This document shows, in pieces, positions 340-61,368 of a DNA stretch of 64,000 bases. The translations under genes were made by a program, and so were the position numbers. The notes under the pieces are model-generated. The model saw nothing but the letters and a program-made list of their open reading frames with translations, was not told the origin of the DNA and searched no databases. The stretch is taken from the NCBI RefSeq assembly GCF_040054535.1, contig NC_090795.1, positions 9,106,501 to 9,170,500 of the forward strand, given 5' to 3'. Numbering within the stretch: the first letter of the stretch is position 1; every line of letters begins with the position of its first letter. The stretch comes from Antennarius striatus. Its lineage: Eukaryota > Chordata > Actinopteri > Lophiiformes > Antennariidae.

Positions 340-1492
340 GATCCTCTCCTTTAATTTATATATGCATATATTCTGCATCCATTCACAGTTGGTCTGACAA
401 TAACCTGAGATTAAAATGGTTCACCGGTCCCTCTGTTGGATTGCCTTGCATCAAACAGCTGTGGTGGACATACCTGAAAAGATACCATTTTAAATACAGG
501 CTGCTGCCAAACTGATGGTTTATTATTGATGAACTAAATGTAAGACACTTGTGGAGTCCCTTCAGACAGAGAAGTGAAAAAAAACAGCAACATACAAGTA
601 GGAAGTGATCTTTTCTTTCCTTTATTTCCATCACAATAAATAATATCCGTTGAAAACAACTAGATTTATGCAGGGAAGCCATTTTCGGAGAAAATTGTTC
701 CATTTTTATGATAATCAAACGTCGTTAGCAGCTTTTTGATGTTGCTAAAGTTGGATATGGGTCTCTTAATTCTTTTATATCTCTAAATTCAACATATATG
801 TTCTAATGATATCTGATCTAATGATGTCAAAAACCGATTTCAGCAGACTTATCAGAAAAAGAAAGCTTTGCTGCCTCCCTGTGGCTAAATCTGTGCGCAC
901 ACGCTGCACACATTATGACGTCACGCACTAAAAAAAACAGTTTCAAGGAAGAACACAGTTGCTTCGAATTAATAGTACAATAAAATATATATGCATGATA
1001 AAAAATATATATTATATGTGTAATAAAAATAAAACTGACACGTATCAAATCAAGCTCGTCTGGTTTGAACCAGCCGTCATGAACGTTTCAACAACATCGC
1101 CTACGTCATCAACAAGCTGCGCATGCGCAGTACAATGTGAAAGCAGACGTATCATCAGTCAGCGGGACTCGACCCAAACTACTGTATTTATCAACCTCGG
1201 TGTTTCAGGTATGGATATTCCGAACACCGTTGCCGCTTCTGGGCCTCGAGGACTCTCTAAATAACAGGACCCCATCGCGAAAAGAGACTAAAAGTGGCAC
1301 CTTAAGAAGTGGGGTTCACTTTTTAAAGTCACCCCACAGTTGACAGGAGATACGCACTTGCTTCCTGTTGTCAGTGAGGCTGTTTGATGACGGAAGGAGA
1401 TCAAATAATGTAAAGACCGGAGACCGGAATCAACGAGGAGCTGACGCCGACAGCCTGACCGGAGGTGAGCGACCCATGAGCGTGTTGGGGGT
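340..1492. promoter_or_regulatory. Spacer and likely promoter/5' UTR of the SHARPIN/HOIL-1L gene
   Basis: No coding exon is recognised here. The first part (340-1050) is AT-rich and unremarkable. From about 1070 the sequence becomes richer in GC and CpG (for example TGCGCATGCGCAGT at 1117-1130, an NRF1-like palindrome) and continues into the first coding exon, as expected for a housekeeping-type promoter. A possible splice donor (GGAG|GTGAGC at 1462-1471) could mark an alternative 5' noncoding exon; this is inference. Confidence 0.4.
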
Positions 1493-2034
1493 ATGTCGCT
1501 GACTTCAGGAGGCTGGGCTCACGGTCCGGGCGACACGCCGGACCAGTCCGCCGCCCTCCCCGCTCACCATGAGGCCTCACCGTCACAACTTGGCTGCCGG
1601 ACCGTCCTCATGTCGGTTCGGGTGTCGGTGTGTCACTCTGGTATTCGGCCGCTGTGTCTTCCCGGAGCAGGTGGCGACTCCCTCCGCCTGCAACTTAGCA
1701 TGGACCCCGGGAAGTCCGGGGAATTCCGGCTGTCGCTTCAGGACGGCAGCGGGACCGGCCGGAGTGCGGTGAGCACACAGCACAAATACACGCAAAACAC
1801 GTGGAAACATGTCTGTAAATAAGTTTATAGTCACTACAAGACTAGAGACAAAGTCAGAGTTACAGAGACTTTTTATTATTATATTATTATTGTTAGTTAT
1901 TATTATTGTTATTATTATTATTGTTATTATTATTTTATTACATTGTCAGTGTTCGTGTGTTCGTCCGTCTGTTAGTCCACCAAATACCTTTGCAACCATT
2001 GTTGATAGATAGATAGATAGATAGATAGATAGAC

Positions 2035-2073
<39 letters not shown>

Positions 2074-2483
2074 TAGACAGATAGACAGATAGACAGATAG
2101 ACAGATAGATAGATAGACAGATAGACAGATATACTTTATTTATCCCAAACTGATAGGAAGATGAAACAAAAAGCACATTACTCGGGCAGCAAATGGGATG
2201 AAAAAGACATGATGAGGTCAAGCTGCGTTGAGCTTGACCTTGAGAAAACTAAGTTAAATTTAAACTTTTATACACTGAAGAATGGGATAAGATAGAAAGA
2301 CAAGGGGGGAAGGCCAACATGAGTAAAACCATAGATCAAGTAGGTCAGAGCACTAGCTGTGATCTTTGACCTATGCCAGTAGGTCAGGGTAAAATTTTGA
2401 ATTCAGGGGTGTCGCAAAATGTTGCAGTCTGACTGCCTTGGTTCTACTTATTATTATAGCAGACATTGCATTTTATCAACAAT

Positions 2484-2571
<88 letters not shown>

Positions 2572-5500
2572 TATATACAATATATAGAGTAGTAGAGTCA
2601 GCCAGTAAGAGGTTAAGTTTGACAAAAGTGTTGATTCTCTCTTCAGTCATCTGGTGTGGAGTTATTTGGGCTCAAACAACAGATTCAGGTTTTATAAGCT
2701 AGTTACATGCATATGCATTTTGACAGCTGTTCTGTGACTTTGGTCCTCCTAAATATAAGTATTATAATACCTAAATATTATAAGTTTGGAAACATTGCTA
2801 ATTTCTTAGCCAATCTTTGTTTTTATGGAACTCAGTGACTATTGAAAAATCATAATTTTTGGACACTTCCTGAAGCTTCATCAAAAGAGACCAAGAAGAA
2901 AGAGAAGACAGTGATGGGTTTCTTTACAAGGAGCCTACCAGAGTCTCAGAGTGTCATGGCATAATGTAACCCATGATTCATTCTCCATTAGTTATTTGTG
3001 CCCCATTTGTTTCCCTGTTACCAGACCATCGCTGAGTTTGATTTGGGGACAGTAAAGTATGAAGTGAAGTCACCAAAGTGCCACGAACTGAGTTTAGTTA
3101 CGCCTCCGCATGAACGCATCAGCTTCAACTTCCGCTGTGAGCAGGAGGCTCAGGAGTGGGCTACAGTGGTGTTATCATCTCTGAGAGAAGCACAAAGAGG
3201 TCAGTCACCTTTCATGTCATGTGAACTGAGCTAGTCTTCCCTCAAACAGTTGATTTGTTTGCTACTTATTTGAGCGGAAGAGTTTCTCTTTGCCTTCCTT
3301 GATGTAGCTTAACAGCACTTTCGTCAGTCTCAACCACCATAACCAAATCTCTTTTTTCAGCTTCAGATGGAATTTCAGTCAATTGCTCACTGTTTACTCT
3401 GTTGAATGTTAAAAATTGTTAATAACAACAAAGATGATATTTAAATAAATTTCAAAAGTAGTGCACAACCAGTAAGCTATCGGCTATGGTTTGGGCCCAT
3501 CATTTTAAAGAAAGTTAATATATTCTTAGCCAGAAAATCTCCACTGAGTATCTCTTTGAGTTTGGGGATGCTGAACTCAACTTGCTAGGAAGACACTTCA
3601 AGAATGGACTTGGGACATGTATAAAATTCATTATCGTTCCTGAAAATGTAGGAGGGAATTTGTTTAGGTCTTTTTAGTTTCATTGGATTTCTGAACTGAG
3701 TTCCCTGGCACTCAAAACAGATTATCACTGAAATTAGTGTTGGTCAGGGACGCTGATCAATTATCAATTACTGTGGATTCATTATCCCTGTAGCAGCAAA
3801 CAGAACCGTCTTGTTTCCAGAGACACACTAAAACTGGATGAATAACTACAATTCATTACGTTCTACCCTCTAAGGACTGCTGTGTTCCCCTGTGGCCCCT
3901 ACTTACATAATACAATACTATATAATGTACTGTACTGGGTAAATGGGCTAAGATTAGAAACGGTGATGTAAAAACACATCAAGGATCAAATGGAAACATT
4001 CACTTTGTTTTTTTCTGCGTTGTCATCTCTTCTGTTTTAAAAACTTTGTCTAAGCAGAAGCAGCAATATGAAAGTTAGTGGAAGATTGAAAGGTTTCAGT
4101 CCACAGCTGCATAGAGCACAAAATAAAAATGTTTGTCTGGTTGTTTGACTTTTCTCTTTGACAGTTGTCCCCAAAGATGGCGGTCAAACGCGGCTCACTG
4201 ATGGTCTCAATATTCAGAGTACATTGTCCTTGCAGCAAACAGGTGTGTGCACTGACCACTTCCCTGCTAACATAATATATTATCGTCTAGTATGATGTAA
4301 TGTGACTGATTTACACATCAGTCCCTTACCAGCTGTTAACTGTTAAGGCATTATCCCTTTCACACACTTTGCAGTATGCTGACCATCATGGCTTGTCTGT
4401 GATTCTTTCTGCTCATATCTTCTGCAGAGGAAACCTGCGTTGAGCTTTCCCGAGCCATAGAAGCAGGTGACATGCAGTCGGCTTCTGTCTTTGCTGCCAC
4501 ACTTGCCCGACAACATGCCAGTCTAAAGATTCAGCCCTCTGCCAAAGATAACAATGAAAGTGAAATCAGGTAGGAGTGTTTTTACCATTTAATATAACTA
4601 AAACATTAAAAAGAATGTGGTTGATATTCAAAAATTAATTCAATTTTAAAGTGTAATATAAAGTAGATCGTGGTGTCATCAGTGCAGACTATGTGATGAA
4701 TGGCTACTCTTTTGTATTATCACAGCTTGGCTGTTGTAGTCGAGGACTCTTCTTCATCCTGTTGTATTACTGTGAAAGTTTTTCCACACATGACTACTGC
4801 AGTACTGAAACAGCAGGTCAGTCTGAAGCACTCTCCTCTTCATCATTTGTGTAGAGTTGGTTTAATTTGGATGTTGCAAAATTGCTATTTCCATGAAATA
4901 AGTTCTGAGTTGACTTATTTCTTTAAGTTCAAAGTTTCTGCTTTTATATGTTAGAGTTTTTTTATAGTAGGTTTACATCCTTTAATATGAATAACTTATT
5001 TTGCACCACTGTGCTCACTCTTCAACTTCCTTGAGGCCCTGTCAGGAGCAAAACAACAAAGGAAACGTTAGCTGCGTTTTAACACTGCAGTATAAACACC
5101 AAAAAGTCAGCATTAAAAAAACTAGTAACAACATCCAGCATACTACTCTTGTTATTCTGGGCACTCCAAATGGAGCTAGACATTCATGGAGTTGAAATGT
5201 TGCAGGTTCCTTCTTAAAAATATAAAAAGGTGGGATTTTTATTCAGGTGAGGATGACCCACAATCACAGTTTGCTGTTCCTCTCTCTTTGGTTTTCTTTC
5301 ACCTCAGATGTTTCTTGAGTATGGCTTTCACCCATGGGTACAGCGCTGGGTGATTGGTCAGTGTCTGTGCACTGACCAGCGCTCTCTGGCCTCATACGGC
5401 GTTCATCAAGATGGTGACACAGCCTTCTTGTACCTCCTGTCGGCCCGTCACGCTCGCCTGACCTTACAAGTGCTTCAACAGGACCAGGAGAGTGCCCTTC

Positions 5501-8500
5501 TTCTCAGTCATCCATCGTTGTCTCGCTCCACTCCTCCCCTGCCTGCGGCCTCTACAAATGGCCTCTCAACTGTGGACCAGAGGCCATACACCACCCTACC
5601 TCCCAGAACCCATGCCAACAGCCACAGTAAGGGTAAGGGTAATCATATGGGCTTCTCAGTGTTGTCAAACTTGCATTGTCATTTAAGTCATGCTTTCATA
5701 CATTTTCTTAACTGTTTCCGCTTTTGTGGGTCACGGATTTGCTGAAGCGTATCCGAGCGGACTTGTGGAAAAGTGGCGGGGACTCTCCCGGCACAACGCT
5801 GGTTCACAGCGGAGCTTATTTAACACATATCTGTTTTTTTTTAATTATTATCATTCATGAAATAGTGAATCCATAAAGAAGTGATTGAGCTGGTGTGTAG
5901 CAAATGGTAATATTGTTATCATTTGTCAGAAACAGTTTCATGTAGGAAAGAAAATCATAAGATCAACTTCCGGTCACCAAAGCTTCCCAGTCAGCTTTCC
6001 GCTGATCTTTACCTGGAAATTATGTTCTGGTCAAGGTGGATACTCATTGATCATACAAACGTTATAACACGTTATAAGTTTTATTAATCAGTTATTATAT
6101 GGGCTGTTTTAAATTCCTGATGTTTTGATACGTCACCGTGACGTTATGTTTTCTATTTTATATTACGTTATTGCAACGTTATCGTGACATTCGATTGTAG
6201 TCAGGCACCTTTTAGGGGAGCCCAGGTGCATCGTGGGGTCCTGTCAGAGAGGTCCAGCGCCGTTAGCGCTAGTTTTTAGTTTCAGTTAGTGAGAGTTAGC
6301 GATCAGAACGAATGAACAGAGGCTGTTTACCCGTCCGAACCGAATCATTTAATGCAGTTAATCTGTAATGCTGCTGAAAGTTTAATTAAATACAAATCGA
6401 ACTGTTCCCTGTGTGGCGCCTCTCTCTAACCAGAGCAACCGCGGTGGATGAGGTGGGTCCAACAAACTAAATACAGTCGCCTCCGGGCATACCTACAATA
6501 TGGGCATTGTTGGTGAGAAAATCGGTGCTGAGGTTCTTCACACATCTCTCTGGCAGGTCTGAGCGAAGAACAAAGAACATTCCAGTGTGAATACTTTTAA
6601 GAGATTCATTGCGCTCCTCTTTATGGGAGGACTTGAATGAATGAATTAGCATATCTAAATGTCCATCCATTGTTAAACTTGAATCCAAGTTGAATGCTGT
6701 ATATTTAATTTGATAAATGCTTAATGTTCAAACAGGCATAATCTGGTGATGCAGAGGAAAACAACCACACCTGCAGCACTAGGGCCACAACAAAGTCTTG
6801 TTGCGCATGAAAGCATAGTGATAAATCGTTCAGAGACCTTAAAGTAGAGACACCTGCTAATAAACACACTGGGCTCAAAGAGTCATTTGCAGATGTTTAC
6901 TAATTGGTTATTCTGCTTTCTCATTAAATATTTCAGGTGGGTCAAACACAAGTGAGTTAAGAGATCTCATCAACCTAGATATGTCCCAACTCAAAGAGGC
7001 ACTGAGCCCCATCACAGCCTCCACCCAGGTAATGGACTGCTGCTGCTTTTGGCACTTCAATATGTTTTGACCATTTACATCCCGCGAAGCGGTGATGTAT
7101 TGTAATTGTCAGTTTTTGTGTGTTCGTCCGCCCGTCCATCCACCAAATATCTTCACAACCATTGCAGATACAAAGATGAAAGAAAAAGCACATTACTCAG
7201 GCGGCAAAGGGGATAAAAATTAGATCAATCAATCAATCAATCAACTTTATTTATATAGCGCTTAATCACATCTGAAGACATTTCAAAGCGCTTTACAAAT
7301 AGAAAGCCAACAATGCCCTCCAGAGCAAGCATAAGCGACGGTGGCAGGGGAAAACTCCCTCATTGAGGAAGAAACTCCGGGCAGGACGCAGGCTCTGGAA
7401 GGCGGTCATCCGCCTTGACCTGTTGGTTGGGAAAGAGAAATACACTGGGGACAGAGATAGGTCAAGTGAAAGAGAGAGGGAGAGAGAGAGTAGCAGATAG
7501 GTCAGTTAAAAAGTTAAAATCCTCCACAACTGGCCAACGTTCAAACTCTATCCTAGCGTAAACTGATTGATATTTGTCCCAGAAACCCTGCTCTTTGGTG
7601 TGGTGTGCAGGAAAAGGCAGATCGCACTGCTGATGAGAAGAGGATTAACAAAAATGATTGGGAAGACCAGCTACACAGTAGCTTAAGAATTAGGGCAACT
7701 ACGTAGTACACCCTAGGAGTAACTTGTTCAGTATGTTTTTCAAGGGCAGTGTTCAGGACGTGAATAGATGACGTAGTTTTCTTCACCTTGAGAAAACTAG
7801 TTCAAGGTCAAATTTCAACTTTTGTACATTTTTTTGCACATATCTCAGGAACCGGATAAGATAGAAAGACGAAACAAAAAGCATTATATTCAGGGAGGCA
7901 TGGTGATAAAAATTAGACCACAACCTTGCCCTTGAAAAACTAGGCTAAGGACAAATTTTCAATTTTATACCTTTTTAGGCACACATCTCAGAAACCTGAT
8001 GAGATATACTGTAATAAACAAAACAAAAAGATTTTCAGGAAGCCAGGGGCACAAAATGTGATGATGTCGCGCGATGTGGCAGTCTCTGACTGCCTTGTTT
8101 AAAATGTATTAGAAAACACTGAAAGAGAATGAAAAAAAATAAAGAATATTTGTGTGTCTTAGGGCTGGCCATGCCCATCTTGTACTTACATAAATAAACC
8201 AACACGTCCGGGCTGTGAGATCTGCAGCACAAACCGCCCTGAGAACTACGTCATTCCAGGGGGATATCGTCCAGATGCTCTGGAACTTCAAAGAATCCAG
8301 CAGGAGAAGGAGTCCATCAGACAGTACCAGCAGGTACAAAGCACACACTCCTACCTGTACTGCATCATTTTCCACATTACACACAGTATTTATGCATTTA
8401 CAATCATACACGTACTTAGGAAAACCTCCGTTTTATGTGCAGTTTTGTGGCAATTTTAAAAAACGTGTTGCAACAAGCTGCAACCCAGCACGTTTTCTAA

Positions 8501-11454
8501 TTGGGAACAACACCAAGGCAAGGGAAAGAAGAGATAGATTAGTAGTTGACATTTGATTATAACTCTACAAGCTCTCTCAGGTTGACTCTCTTCTCTTTTG
8601 TCTCTGTTTTTTTAAAGGAGAAAGGGAGAAGAGAGGTGCTGAGGAGTGCAAACAACTCACTCCTGTTTAACCTGGACCAGGACATCTGAACACAGAGACA
8701 CAAGCATACGCACACTCCATGACTATGCGTGTTTCCCAGTTTGAAATTACAGCCACATTTTCGGATGTACCCATCAAACACTTTACTTTTAAATACAGTA
8801 ACTCATCAATGACAATGTCTGTGTGAACATCTATATGCTTGAATTTTTATCATCTGATTATTTATATCCTGCTTTTGACAGAATGTAGGTTAACAAGCAC
8901 ATTTGGACCACACTGATGAGACTTTTTAAGCCTTGTATATGCCAAATAATCGAAGCAGAAGGTGGTGATGCATCTTGGTCTGCACGGTTTTACATGAAGG
9001 AGAATTGTTGATTATATATTTTAAGATATTAACATTTTAAAGTTTACAAAATGTAACCAATATAGATTTTCCCCTCAAAAATATAATGAAAAATATTCTG
9101 TCACAAGGTCAAATCTTAAGGTTACCTGGCCTTGATGAACCCGGCATTGACCGTTCAGTATCAGAAAACTGTACATCAGCTGATTAAATGTGGGTTTTCG
9201 TGTACAGTATTAACTGCTTTATTAATTTTGTCAAACCTGAAGTAAACTTAAATAATAATAATAATTAAAATGCAGCTATAATCATCATTATATAGTTATT
9301 TAGCATGACTGCTCCGTGGTTTTACTGCACAGGTTGCCACAGTGAAGAGTGAGCCACCTTCTAATCTTCTGTCAAGCTCCTGTCAACACATGATGCTCAA
9401 ACTGTAGTGAGACATTATGAAAAATGCTGGATAATTGTGATCTCTGCTGGCTGTCATCATGGACTGTTATTTTATTGAACTTCTAAAGAGCAGAGGTTTC
9501 CACTTCATTGAATGTATTGGTCCGATTTTTAATTTTGCACTGTCAGTTGGGTTTATAAAAAGAAATCCGAATAAAAGTCTTGATATGCAATGCGTGTGAC
9601 TGCTCATGTACAGTATGTGCAAATACATCCATTTTATTGTATTTTACTTTTAAATGTGATCAATTTCACTCTGCCCTCGTGACACAAGTAGAAGGGAGAA
9701 GGTTTAATTCATAACACTGCTAACACATCACCCCATGTGACAGGCAAGGGAAGAGGAGCGCAAGGAGAATTTTGCCCAGCTAATGATGATCGACAGCCAA
9801 GACCTGCTCCCTAACCCCGATCCTGTGGACTGTAGGATCTGCTACGTAGACCTCAAGCCGGGAGAAGGGGTCCTCCTGAGGGAGTGTCTCCACTGCTTCT
9901 GCCGGTAAGATCCAGGGAGTGGTACGTAATATGAAACGTTTTTCATGATTCACACCTGTCATTACCTTTGTGTTTGTGTGTTCCTGCCCAGAGAGTGCTT
10001 ACGTTCAGTCATCATGCTTAGTGAGGAGCCAGAGGTATCTTGTCCTTACAGAGATGACACATACTCCTGCACATGCTCCCTACAGGAGAGGGAAATCAAA
10101 GCTGTGAGTCAAACCAAAGCGTGTAGTAATGGTTCAAATACCAGACTGAATTGCTTCCCTGACAAATTAGTTCCAGAGAAAACCTGATCCATACCAGGGC
10201 TGTTGATATTATGTCATTGCTGGTATATTTACCTTCATTTGTTTACTTTGCATAACACTTCAGCAGTATTATTAGGGTAACTAATCCACCGAAGTTTCCA
10301 ATTTCCTTCCCTGCCTTCTGTCCAGTTGGTGCCTCTTGAAGAGTATGAGCGCTGGCTTCAGAGAGGTCTGTCCGTGGCCGAGTCTCGCTGTGAGGGCAGC
10401 TACCACTGTGCAACTCCAGACTGTCTGGGCTGGTGCGTTTACGAGGACACAGTCAACGTCTTCCATTGCCCCGTCTGCAGGAAGCAAAACTGTCTCATCT
10501 GCAAAGTATGACAGAGTTCTTTCAGTGTGTACAGACATAATATTACATGATTATTATTTCCCACAAATTCTGCCTTTATATCCTAGCTGTATTTTTGTTT
10601 AATCCTCAGTCTATCCATGAGGGAATGAACTGCAAACAGTACCAAGATGATCTTGCATCACGTGCTATAAATGACTCTGCTGCCAGGAGGACAACACATC
10701 TGCTCAAGGTGAACTGTACCTGGCACTGGTGTACTATACTGTATATCCTCCAACAAAGGAGGAAAATCCTCTCAACTGCAGATAGTGCCAGGGGTCTGAT
10801 TTGGGTTTACTGTATATGTGTAAAACATACTGTAGACAAACAAACTTGAGAGAAAAATATATAATCATTTATATACACTCCATCCCATGTATACAACTAT
10901 TTTGTAGAATTTAATTCCCTGTAATCCAAAACAAATGACAGTACAATTTATTTCCTCCCCCACAGACTCTTGTGCAGTCAGGAGAGGCGATGCACTGCCC
11001 CCAGTGTGGCATCATTGTGCAGAAGAGGGATGGATGTGATTGGGTGCGCTGCACTGTCTGTCACACTGAAATTTGCTGGGTGACCAGAGGGCCCCGCTGG
11101 GGGCCAAAGGTATGAAATCCTTCTTTCTTGACCACATGTTTGATGATCTAGGAACCACCCTGTGTCTGTGTTCTACAGCTTCAAATGAAAGAACAATTCA
11201 TTCACTTTTGGTTGATAAGTTTCATGATAAGGTGGATTGTATAAAGAAGAAGATTCACTCACAAGTGGTTCAACTCACCCTTCCTCCATCACATGAATGA
11301 TGGAATGGTGGCATGCCACGGTGATTAAATGTTATTCAAATGTTTGACATGTCTCATTGTCATTCCTTTAAAGGGTCCCGGGGACACCAGTGGAGGATGT
11401 CGCTGCAACATCAATAATCAGAAATGCCACCCTAAATGCCAAAACTGCCACTGA
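1493..11454 (+). CDS. sharpin: SHARPIN/HOIL-1L composite: PH-like, UBL, NZF and RING-IBR-RING E3 subunit of LUBAC
   Basis: Fourteen coding exons join in frame to 708 aa: 1493-1768, 3025-3199, 4165-4242, 4428-4569, 4726-4816, 5308-5632, 6937-7028, 8163-8333, 9744-9904, 9992-10103, 10326-10505, 10610-10708, 10966-11109, 11374-11454. Residues about 40-150 resemble the SHARPIN PH-like dimerisation domain (LRLQLSMDP). About 177-210 is the LUBAC-tethering helix (LSRAIEAGD), 235-310 the ubiquitin-like domain ([10 protein letters not shown]) that binds HOIP, and 394-420 a Npl4 zinc finger (GWPCPSC..CEIC). RING1 starts at C480, followed by IBR and RING2 with the catalytic-type Cys at residue 658 (DGCDW, nt 11035-11037) and the family's terminal Cys-rich tail ending CQNCH. 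Human SHARPIN (387 aa) stops after the NZF; human RBCK1 (510 aa) lacks the PH part. Position next to oplah/foxh1 matches SHARPIN; an rbck1-like name is equally defensible. The 1493 start has G at -3; ATG 1610 (669 aa) is the alternative. Confidence 0.9.
1871..1940. repeat. (TTA)n-rich microsatellite
   Basis: Imperfect TTA/TTG trinucleotide array in the first intron of the LUBAC gene, just before a dispersed-repeat copy. Confidence 0.85.
1945..2445 (+). repeat. Dispersed repeat family R, copy 1, interrupted by a GATA/GACA array
   Basis: The left part (GTTCGTCCGTCTGTTAGTCC, then CACCAAATACC) matches 7117-7150 and the reverse complement of 37900-37945. The middle part (GAAACAAAAAGCACATTACT) matches copies at 7170 and 37860. 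The right end (GGGGTGTCGCAAAATGTTGC) matches the reverse complement near 37550-37575. It lacks coding capacity. It lies in intron 1 of the LUBAC gene. Confidence 0.7.
2003..2131. repeat. (GATA)n/(GACA)n microsatellite
   Basis: About 130 bp of tetranucleotide units, GATA at both sides and GACA in the middle, inside family R copy 1. Its open frame is only a by-product of the repeat. Confidence 0.95.
2488..2570. repeat. (GT)n microsatellite, about 83 bp
   Basis: Uninterrupted GT dinucleotides in intron 1 of the LUBAC gene. Confidence 0.97.
5735..6480. other. Unexplained intronic block, possibly a solo LTR-like fossil
   Basis: This stretch in the intron between 5632 and 6937 differs from its neighbours in composition: a GC-rich start, an AT-rich middle, then a part with GCGCCGTTAGCGC and, near 6390-6460, an AT-rich signal followed by TGTGTGGCGCC and an end reading CCAACA. 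That order resembles the R-U5 end of a retroviral-type LTR. No second copy, no clear target duplication and no coding part were seen. Family and age are undetermined, and it may be something else. Confidence 0.25.
7083..8100 (+). repeat. Dispersed repeat family R, copy 2, with a nested interspersed repeat
   Basis: It begins GCGAAGCGGTGATGTATTG, like the reverse complement of copy 3 (GTGATGTACTGTATTG), and ends GCAGTCTCTGACTGCCTTG, like copy 1. It contains two diverged tandem units of about 130-137 bp (7784-7920 and 7921-8050), each with the order CTTGA(A)AAACTAG, a CAAATTT block, a CACA.CTCAG block and AACAAAAAG. A different repeat sits at 7215-7445. It lies in the intron between 7028 and 8163 of the LUBAC gene. 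No open frame is convincing. Confidence 0.7.
7215..7445. repeat. Interspersed repeat with ATTTATATAGCGC / AAAGCGCTTTACAA motifs
   Basis: Five ATCA/ATCAATC units lead into a TTTATTTATATAGCGCTTA motif and a CAAAGCGCTTTACAA motif, which I know as a very common repeat signature in fish genomes. The class (SINE or LINE 3' tail) cannot be settled here. It interrupts family R copy 2. Confidence 0.6.
8618..9596 (+). CDS. sharpin: Alternative terminal exon giving a SHARPIN-like short isoform (coding 8618-8689, then 3' UTR)
   Basis: A polypyrimidine tract ending TTTAAAG precedes 8618. The exon reads in phase 0 from the NZF exon (8163-8333) and adds 23 residues (start [10 protein letters not shown], end NLDQDI) before TGA at 8687-8689. 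An AATAAA lies at 9570-9575, followed by a GT-rich stretch, so a complete 3' UTR of about 900 nt fits before the next exon at 9744. The product would be 473 aa: PH-like, UBL and NZF but no RING-IBR-RING, the architecture of mammalian SHARPIN. Because 8333 can splice in the same phase either to 8618 or to 9744, both forms are possible. Expression of either form is not shown by the sequence. Confidence 0.65.
9570..9575 (+). terminator. Internal polyadenylation signal AATAAA (short isoform)
   Basis: A canonical hexamer lies about 880 nt after the TGA of the alternative exon, with a TGTGTGAC-type GU-rich stretch 20-30 nt downstream. It lies inside the host gene, about 170 nt before the first RBR exon. 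Confidence 0.6.

Positions 11455-50419: not shown

Positions 50420-61368
<10,949 letters not shown>

Follow-up and report, generated by a model that had tools for sequence, protein, structure and literature searches.

This report concerns a 64,000-nucleotide stretch of DNA from the fish Antennarius striatus (assembly GCF_040054535.1, contig NC_090795.1, positions 9,106,501 to 9,170,500 of the forward strand; C20:9106501-9170500 in our contig numbering, and hereafter the window). The gene at its positions 1493-11454 joins the domain architecture of SHARPIN to the RING-IBR-RING (RBR) ligase part of HOIL-1L, the product of RBCK1. It is a SHARPIN co-ortholog in which an RBR is kept, one of two sharpin genes of this fish, as determined from a tree of the LUBAC tethering motif (LTM) and UBL domain, with which the neighboring genes appear to agree. 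We think it very likely that this RBR, which is of the HOIL-1 type, is ancestral, with independent losses in mammals and in the second fish copy on contig C18.

Domains of the C20 protein

Splicing of the window DNA at 13 GT-AG introns joins 14 coding exons of compatible phases into a single frame of 706 amino acids, which opens with an ATG at 1493 and closes with a TGA at 11452-11454; we infer that the gene is spliced in this manner in RNA. An earlier note, made from the letters alone, had proposed these exons and their span, and had read in them a single gene with both SHARPIN and HOIL-1L/RBCK1 architectures. Both proposals hold for the gene model, the second through Pfam matches to the PH domain and LTM together with the match of the RBR to HOIL-1.

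Pfam recognizes Sharpin_PH (PF16764; E 1.9e-54) and the LTM (E 4e-17) in the protein, and the NZF (25.6 bits, cut-off 27; E 7e-06) and IBR (23.6 bits, cut-off 24.3; E 5.3e-05) score just below their curated cut-offs, while neither a UBL nor a whole RBR was matched by Pfam in this protein. Against solved structures, the human HOIL-1 helix-RBR is matched with 413.3 bits (E 1.7e-122), and the alignment to HOIL-1 is gapless across the junction of exons 8 and 9 (8333/9744). The UBL matches chains of both HOIL-1 and SHARPIN, the LTM-UBL being nearer to SHARPIN chains (114.7-118.1 bits) than to those of HOIL-1 (98.8-102.8 bits), and the PH part matches the SHARPIN structure 4emo with 51.5-55.8 bits. 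The best structure match of the NZF is the HOIL-1 NZF (72.4 bits), with no SHARPIN NZF among the PDB matches. The 53-amino-acid RING1 exon was also scanned against viral contigs, where 14 pattern matches and no confirmed relative came up.

Three loci of the family in one genome

The genome (548,383,777 bases) was searched with individual parts of the protein, scoring the best candidates only. The PH query found matches on C20 and C18 only (4 of 5 candidates at E <= 1), the LTM-UBL query on C20, C18 and C5 (7 of 8 candidates), and the RBR query on C20 (six) and C5 (five) only, which together make 11 of 13 candidates. The NZF exon, searched as DNA, was found on C20 and C5 (2 of 2 candidates), and the NZF of C18 came from protein comparison. 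The C20 gene accordingly carries PH, LTM, UBL, NZF and RBR; a second sharpin on C18 carries PH, LTM, UBL and NZF; and rbck1 on C5 carries LTM, UBL, NZF and RBR.

The C18 gene model comprises nine exons with phases as in C20 and encodes 436 amino acids, with Sharpin_PH (8.3e-54), LTM and NZF. Its protein stops 18 residues past the NZF exon and lacks the helix that follows the NZF (the exon measures 99 nucleotides, versus 171 in C20), and a tblastn search of the surrounding 40 kb with the RBR part found nothing better than E 0.36. Since only 43 of 127 fourfold sites agree between C20 and C18, with both frames intact, their duplication is old. The rbck1 locus (C5:2274106-2281693), the second rbck1 locus for which the earlier note had suggested a search, lies on a contig other than C20. 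Its 12 exons encode 523 amino acids, a 40-nucleotide first coding exon stands where the PH exons would be, and Pfam finds no PH domain in it.

Orthology and chromosomal neighborhood

A tree of the LTM-UBL from seven sequences (C20, C18, C5, and SHARPIN and HOIL-1 of human and mouse) sets C20, C18 and the mammalian SHARPINs apart from C5 and the mammalian HOIL-1 proteins, with support of 99/99. The neighborhoods appear to point the same way. C20 is accompanied by an oxoprolinase-like gene (Hydant_A_N, 4.9e-10; the only match of the oxoprolinase query, with one of one candidate), FOXH1 (matching a FOXH1 chain at 7e-18), an alanine aminotransferase and an ankyrin gene that we take to be PPP1R16A. 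Around C18 lie a Gaa1 gene, a second alanine aminotransferase and a gene of the RNase_PH type, taken for EXOSC4, and the neighbor of C5 is a TBC-domain gene, taken for TBC1D20. These appear to agree with the human map, in which OPLAH, EXOSC4, GPAA1, FOXH1, PPP1R16A, GPT and SHARPIN lie at 8q24.3, and TBC1D20 and RBCK1 at 20p13.

The C20 and C18 genes are probably a pair retained from the teleost genome duplication. The aminotransferase copies near both sharpins (window 58628-61279, and C18 at about 10834000-10839500), whose PDB match is a GPT2-type chain, are a possible trace of a block duplication. A PPP1R16-like exon lies on C5 at 6.93 Mb with 45% identity; PPP1R16A is paired with PPP1R16B of human chromosome 20, which the exon fits, and this may be a sign that the early genome duplications of vertebrates separated SHARPIN from RBCK1. 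The earlier note had seen in the locus the architecture from before that split. Both architectures do stand in one gene, but the tree and the neighbors place this gene on the SHARPIN side, and it is not a stand-in for both descendants.

Descent of the RBR

From the LTM exon onward, C20 and C5 share the same intron phases. The six RBR exons agree in every phase and, in five cases, in length (C20/C5: 161/161, 112/97, 180/180, 99/99, 144/144 and 81/81 nucleotides), and because of this match the RBR is most likely, judging from sequence, older than the split of SHARPIN and RBCK1. Over the helix-RBR, identity is 171/279 (61.3%) between C20 and human HOIL-1, 162/274 between C5 and the human protein, and 153/274 (55.8%) between C20 and C5. 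These identities and the shared exon phases and lengths disfavor a recent, unrelated fusion of the N-terminal half with the RBR, by which the earlier note's reading would have fallen. That the rbck1 of this fish itself took part in a recent fusion was also considered and is disfavored by the shared phases and by an identity between C20 and C5 below that between C20 and human.

If C20 and C18 are sisters with respect to the mammalian genes, the RBR-less state of mammalian SHARPIN and of C18 requires two losses, or one loss plus a regain. Separate losses in mammalian SHARPIN and in C18 are the most likely course, although their number and timing are a matter of inference. The earlier note had described the two mammalian genes as complementary reductions. 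The distribution of domains over the loci supports the loss of the RBR in SHARPIN; the loss of the PH part in HOIL-1 does not stand as the sole account, a gain of PH exons in SHARPIN being equally possible.

One alternative holds that a fish sharpin took the RBR exons of an rbck1 copy after fish and tetrapods had separated, mammalian SHARPIN never having had an RBR. It makes repeated loss unnecessary, and PH-less and RBR-less forms do exist in the other copies. The C20 RBR is, however, less like that of its own rbck1 (153/274) than that of human HOIL-1 (171/279), in a comparison of three sequences which is unrooted and includes a fast-evolving C5, and the captured exons would have had to land in phase right after the NZF exon, thereby recreating the exon order of rbck1. 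We consider such a capture improbable.

Several points weigh against an ancestral RBR in a SHARPIN co-ortholog. The junction from 8333 to 9744 is predicted from the DNA gene model. In the LTM-UBL tree the pairing of C20 with C18 (91/89) lies under the bootstrap mark of the tool, and C5 was flagged as a long branch. The RBR comparison comprises three sequences and no outgroup, which leaves room for an ancient exchange between paralogs in place of inheritance. Finally, the sample is a single fish genome.

Gene model of the C20 locus

The exons and associated features, in window positions, are as follows, the basis of each assignment being given last.

1493..1768, plus strand: exon 1, start codon and first part of the SHARPIN PH-like domain (Pfam; similar N-terminus in C18)
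3025..3199, plus strand: exon 2, remainder of the PH-like domain (Pfam; structure match)
4165..4242, plus strand: exon 3, linker (phase same as C18 exon 3)
4428..4569, plus strand: exon 4, LTM (Pfam)
4726..4816, plus strand: exon 5, first part of the UBL (structure match)
5308..5626, plus strand: exon 6, second part of the UBL and linker; possible alternative ends at 5632 or 5638 (structure match)
6937..7028, plus strand: exon 7, linker (gene model)
8163..8333, plus strand: exon 8, NZF zinc finger and the helix after it (structure match)
8618..8689, plus strand: possible alternative last exon, phase 0, 23 amino acids and stop (resembles the C18 last exon, inconclusively)
9570..9575, plus strand: AATAAA, possible poly(A) signal of the putative short form (motif)
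9744..9904, plus strand: exon 9 of the long form, RING1 (HOIL-1 match; C5 exon comparison)
9992..10103, plus strand: exon 10 of the long form, end of RING1 (HOIL-1 match; C5 exon comparison)
10326..10505, plus strand: exon 11 of the long form, linker and IBR (HOIL-1 match; C5 exon comparison)
10610..10708, plus strand: exon 12 of the long form, end of IBR and linker (HOIL-1 match; C5 exon comparison)
10966..11109, plus strand: exon 13 of the long form, RING2, including Cys656 of catalytic type (HOIL-1 alignment)
11374..11454, plus strand: exon 14 of the long form, C-terminal Cys cluster, terminal His and stop (HOIL-1 alignment)

The start at 1493 is supported by the similar N-terminus of the C18 paralog (MSLTSGGWA in one, MALSSGGWA in the other). 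A short upstream frame (MSVLGVCR and stop; window 1476-1502) overlaps this start codon in another frame, a donor-like GTGAGC lies upstream of it at 1465-1470, and a tRNA-Arg (CCG) gene is found at 267-339, 1.2 kb upstream.

Two features were absent from the earlier note, namely the possible alternative last exon and an ambiguous donor of exon 6. The latter may lie after 5626, 5632 or 5638, all in frame, the later two adding 2 or 4 residues; three consecutive in-frame GT sites (GTAAGG, GTAAGG, GTAATC; window 5627-5644) close the exon, and proteins could differ by these residues. Elsewhere in the window, the minus strand at 54082-54581 resembles by eye a relic of a Tc1-type transposase, one piece of which was without a Pfam match; Pfam named none of five short pieces of sequence.

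A possible ligase-less short form

The stretch at 8618-8689 follows exon 8 in phase 0, with a T-rich acceptor ahead, 23 open codons and a stop, and an AATAAA downstream at 9570. A putative short form that uses it would comprise 471 amino acids and, being without the RBR, would have the architecture of mammalian SHARPIN. The last exon of C18 resembles this stretch in register with the acceptor (ERGRRE/EKGRRE) at 14 of 18 nucleotides, which is reached at no other of 77 intron AG sites or of 3992 AG sites in the window, and the local DNA score of 15 is reached by 0 of 2000 shuffles. The reading as an alternative exon is weakened by the fading of this likeness with length, since three window sites reach it at 24 nucleotides and 2 of 77 intron sites plus 15 window sites at 30. 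Moreover, the C18 last exon bears a likeness to the beginning of the RING1 exon as well, at a two-codon offset (amino-acid score 24 versus 28; DNA score 10, reached by 172 of 2000 shuffles), and amino-acid shuffles favor the RING1 exon equally or more (16/5000 versus 27/5000; 17 versus 23 in another run). Arg and Glu are frequent in both stretches, and blastn gives its best piece only E 0.11, a value that an unrelated piece of 17 bases also has. Because the start of the RING1 exon matches comparably, the C18 last exon could be a decayed RING1 exon.

The likeness is therefore suggestive, not conclusive, and on these sequence features the stretch is only somewhat more probably than not a genuine alternative last exon. 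A narrow motif scan of the intron after the NZF in C5 rbck1 found no such exon. Within 8618-8641, a GAG followed by GTGCTG could, by eye, serve as the donor of an 18-nucleotide in-frame microexon (EKGRRE). In the sister gene, a splice form that lacks the ligase is an established type of product, given that one report (PMC6044281) names an alternatively spliced N-terminal product of HOIL-1L, HOIL-N, and lists RBCK2 among its references.

The same stretch could instead end a gene of its own, with a sharpin terminating at the stop at 8689 and a poly(A) site near 9590, and an adjacent RBR-only gene starting just before 9744. The in-phase stretch with its stop, and the AATAAA 174 bases ahead of the RBR exons, would fit such an arrangement. 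The exon at 9744, however, opens at a splice acceptor and equals the post-NZF exon of C5 rbck1 in phase (0) and length (161 nucleotides), only about 150 bases would separate the poly(A) site from that acceptor for a promoter and a first exon, and the HOIL-1 alignment has no gap over the junction; two genes are thus very improbable. That the C20 gene is an ordinary HOIL-1/rbck1 ortholog with an added N-terminal domain, as its top-scoring solved structure (the HOIL-1 RBR) might suggest, is hardly credible in view of an LTM-UBL that groups with SHARPIN at 99/99 and of the separate, PH-less rbck1 near the TBC gene on C5.

Active site and proposed role in LUBAC

In HOIL-1, C460 is the active-site cysteine, W462 replaces the usual His, and H510, which may form a triad with C460 and E471, is required for substrate transfer (PMC9834252). 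Human C460, W462, R464, E471 and H510 correspond to Cys656, Trp658, Arg660, Glu667 and His706 of C20, with all five kept, the PDB chain compared having Ala at 460 by design. The full RBR with a catalytic-type Cys described in the earlier note is thereby borne out. Of the 33 Cys/His positions in the human chain, 31 are kept in C20 and 30 in the fish rbck1. Because the active-site set and these positions are kept, the C20 RBR is predicted to be active as a ligase. The rbck1 on C5 has Cys at the position of human R464, and five residues are missing in its RING1 between two Cys; its ligase may be altered.

The position of Val-114, a residue at the dimer interface of the mammalian SHARPIN PH domain according to PMC9084887, probably corresponds by alignment to Thr139 in C20 and also to Thr in C18. 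Since this position is probably Thr, self-association of the C20 protein through its PH domain, which the earlier note had raised, is uncertain.

In the mechanism that we propose, the long form of C20 would be a LUBAC subunit whose LTM associates with that of HOIL-1 or SHARPIN, whose UBL docks on HOIP and whose NZF binds ubiquitin, and its RBR would accept ubiquitin from an E2 onto Cys656 and, in the manner of HOIL-1, transfer it to hydroxyl or amine groups. Should the putative short form with its end at 8689 be produced, it would correspond to a mammal-like SHARPIN without a ligase. By monoubiquitinating subunits of LUBAC, HOIL-1L suppresses the complex, and the activity of HOIL-1L is weakened by R464H (PMC10967397). 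This brake could be strengthened by a SHARPIN that bears a HOIL-type RBR itself, but neither by the C18 protein nor by a short C20 form. Ligase activity and complex membership of the C20 protein are predictions from its sequence.

An ancestral SHARPIN with an RBR allows a wider, tentative reading, which we regard as possible yet rather doubtful. SHARPIN would be an RBR ligase whose catalytic half was lost on at least two occasions, an alternative last exon would have prepared these losses by giving a ligase-less isoform already before the teleost duplication, C18 would have fixed the short form, and C20 would have kept the long form or both. The mixed evidence from the C18 last exon makes it somewhat less likely. 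If it is true, fish LUBAC could hold three RBR subunits (HOIP, HOIL-1 and the SHARPIN-RBR), and of the HOIL-type active sites in this fish the better kept would be that on SHARPIN, given the Cys at the R464 position and the five-residue RING1 deletion in rbck1.

Relation to known systems

SHARPIN counts as an adaptor of LUBAC without catalytic activity. The presence of an intact HOIL-type ligase in a vertebrate SHARPIN would help to explain the core common to SHARPIN and HOIL-1, and suggests that SHARPIN descends from an enzyme which lost its catalytic half. Ligase-bearing and ligase-less SHARPIN in one animal would constitute a natural experiment on the HOIL-type mono-ubiquitination that restrains LUBAC, and knockouts of sharpin or rbck1 in fish may not be simple models for the mammalian genes. 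The hybrid architecture itself is probably already annotated, to judge by the name of a zebrafish gene, shrprbck1r ('sharpin and rbck1 related'), which suggests the same hybrid; the evolutionary reading of this architecture is less explored. The symbol stands in the index of PMC12979160 and was not found in its text. A 2010 paper on Sipl1/Rbck1 reportedly included zebrafish work. No paper reporting an RBR-bearing SHARPIN was among the matches listed, which gave titles and the beginnings of abstracts, with most subscription journals outside the search.

Like mammalian SHARPIN (SIPL1), the C20 protein has a PH-like domain, LTM, UBL and NZF in the same order, with an LTM-UBL on the SHARPIN branch and neighbors that appear to fit those of human SHARPIN. 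It differs in its complete RBR from the mammalian protein, which has no RBR and is described with PH, UBL and NZF in PMC9084887; that RBR-less state is found in C18, as far as searched, and would be found in the putative short form of C20. With HOIL-1L/RBCK1, the C20 protein shares LTM, UBL, NZF, helix and an RBR with the equivalents of C460, W462, E471 and H510, and the intron phases of fish rbck1. Mammalian HOIL-1L is not known to have a PH part, and the C20 gene is set apart from HOIL-1L/RBCK1 by its PH domain, by an LTM-UBL of the other branch and by the existence of fish rbck1 as a separate, PH-less locus. The putative form ending in 8618-8689 would resemble RBCK2/HOIL-N, the short splice form of RBCK1, as a ligase-less N-terminal product of alternative splicing (PMC6044281), but RBCK2/HOIL-N belongs to RBCK1 and has no PH domain.

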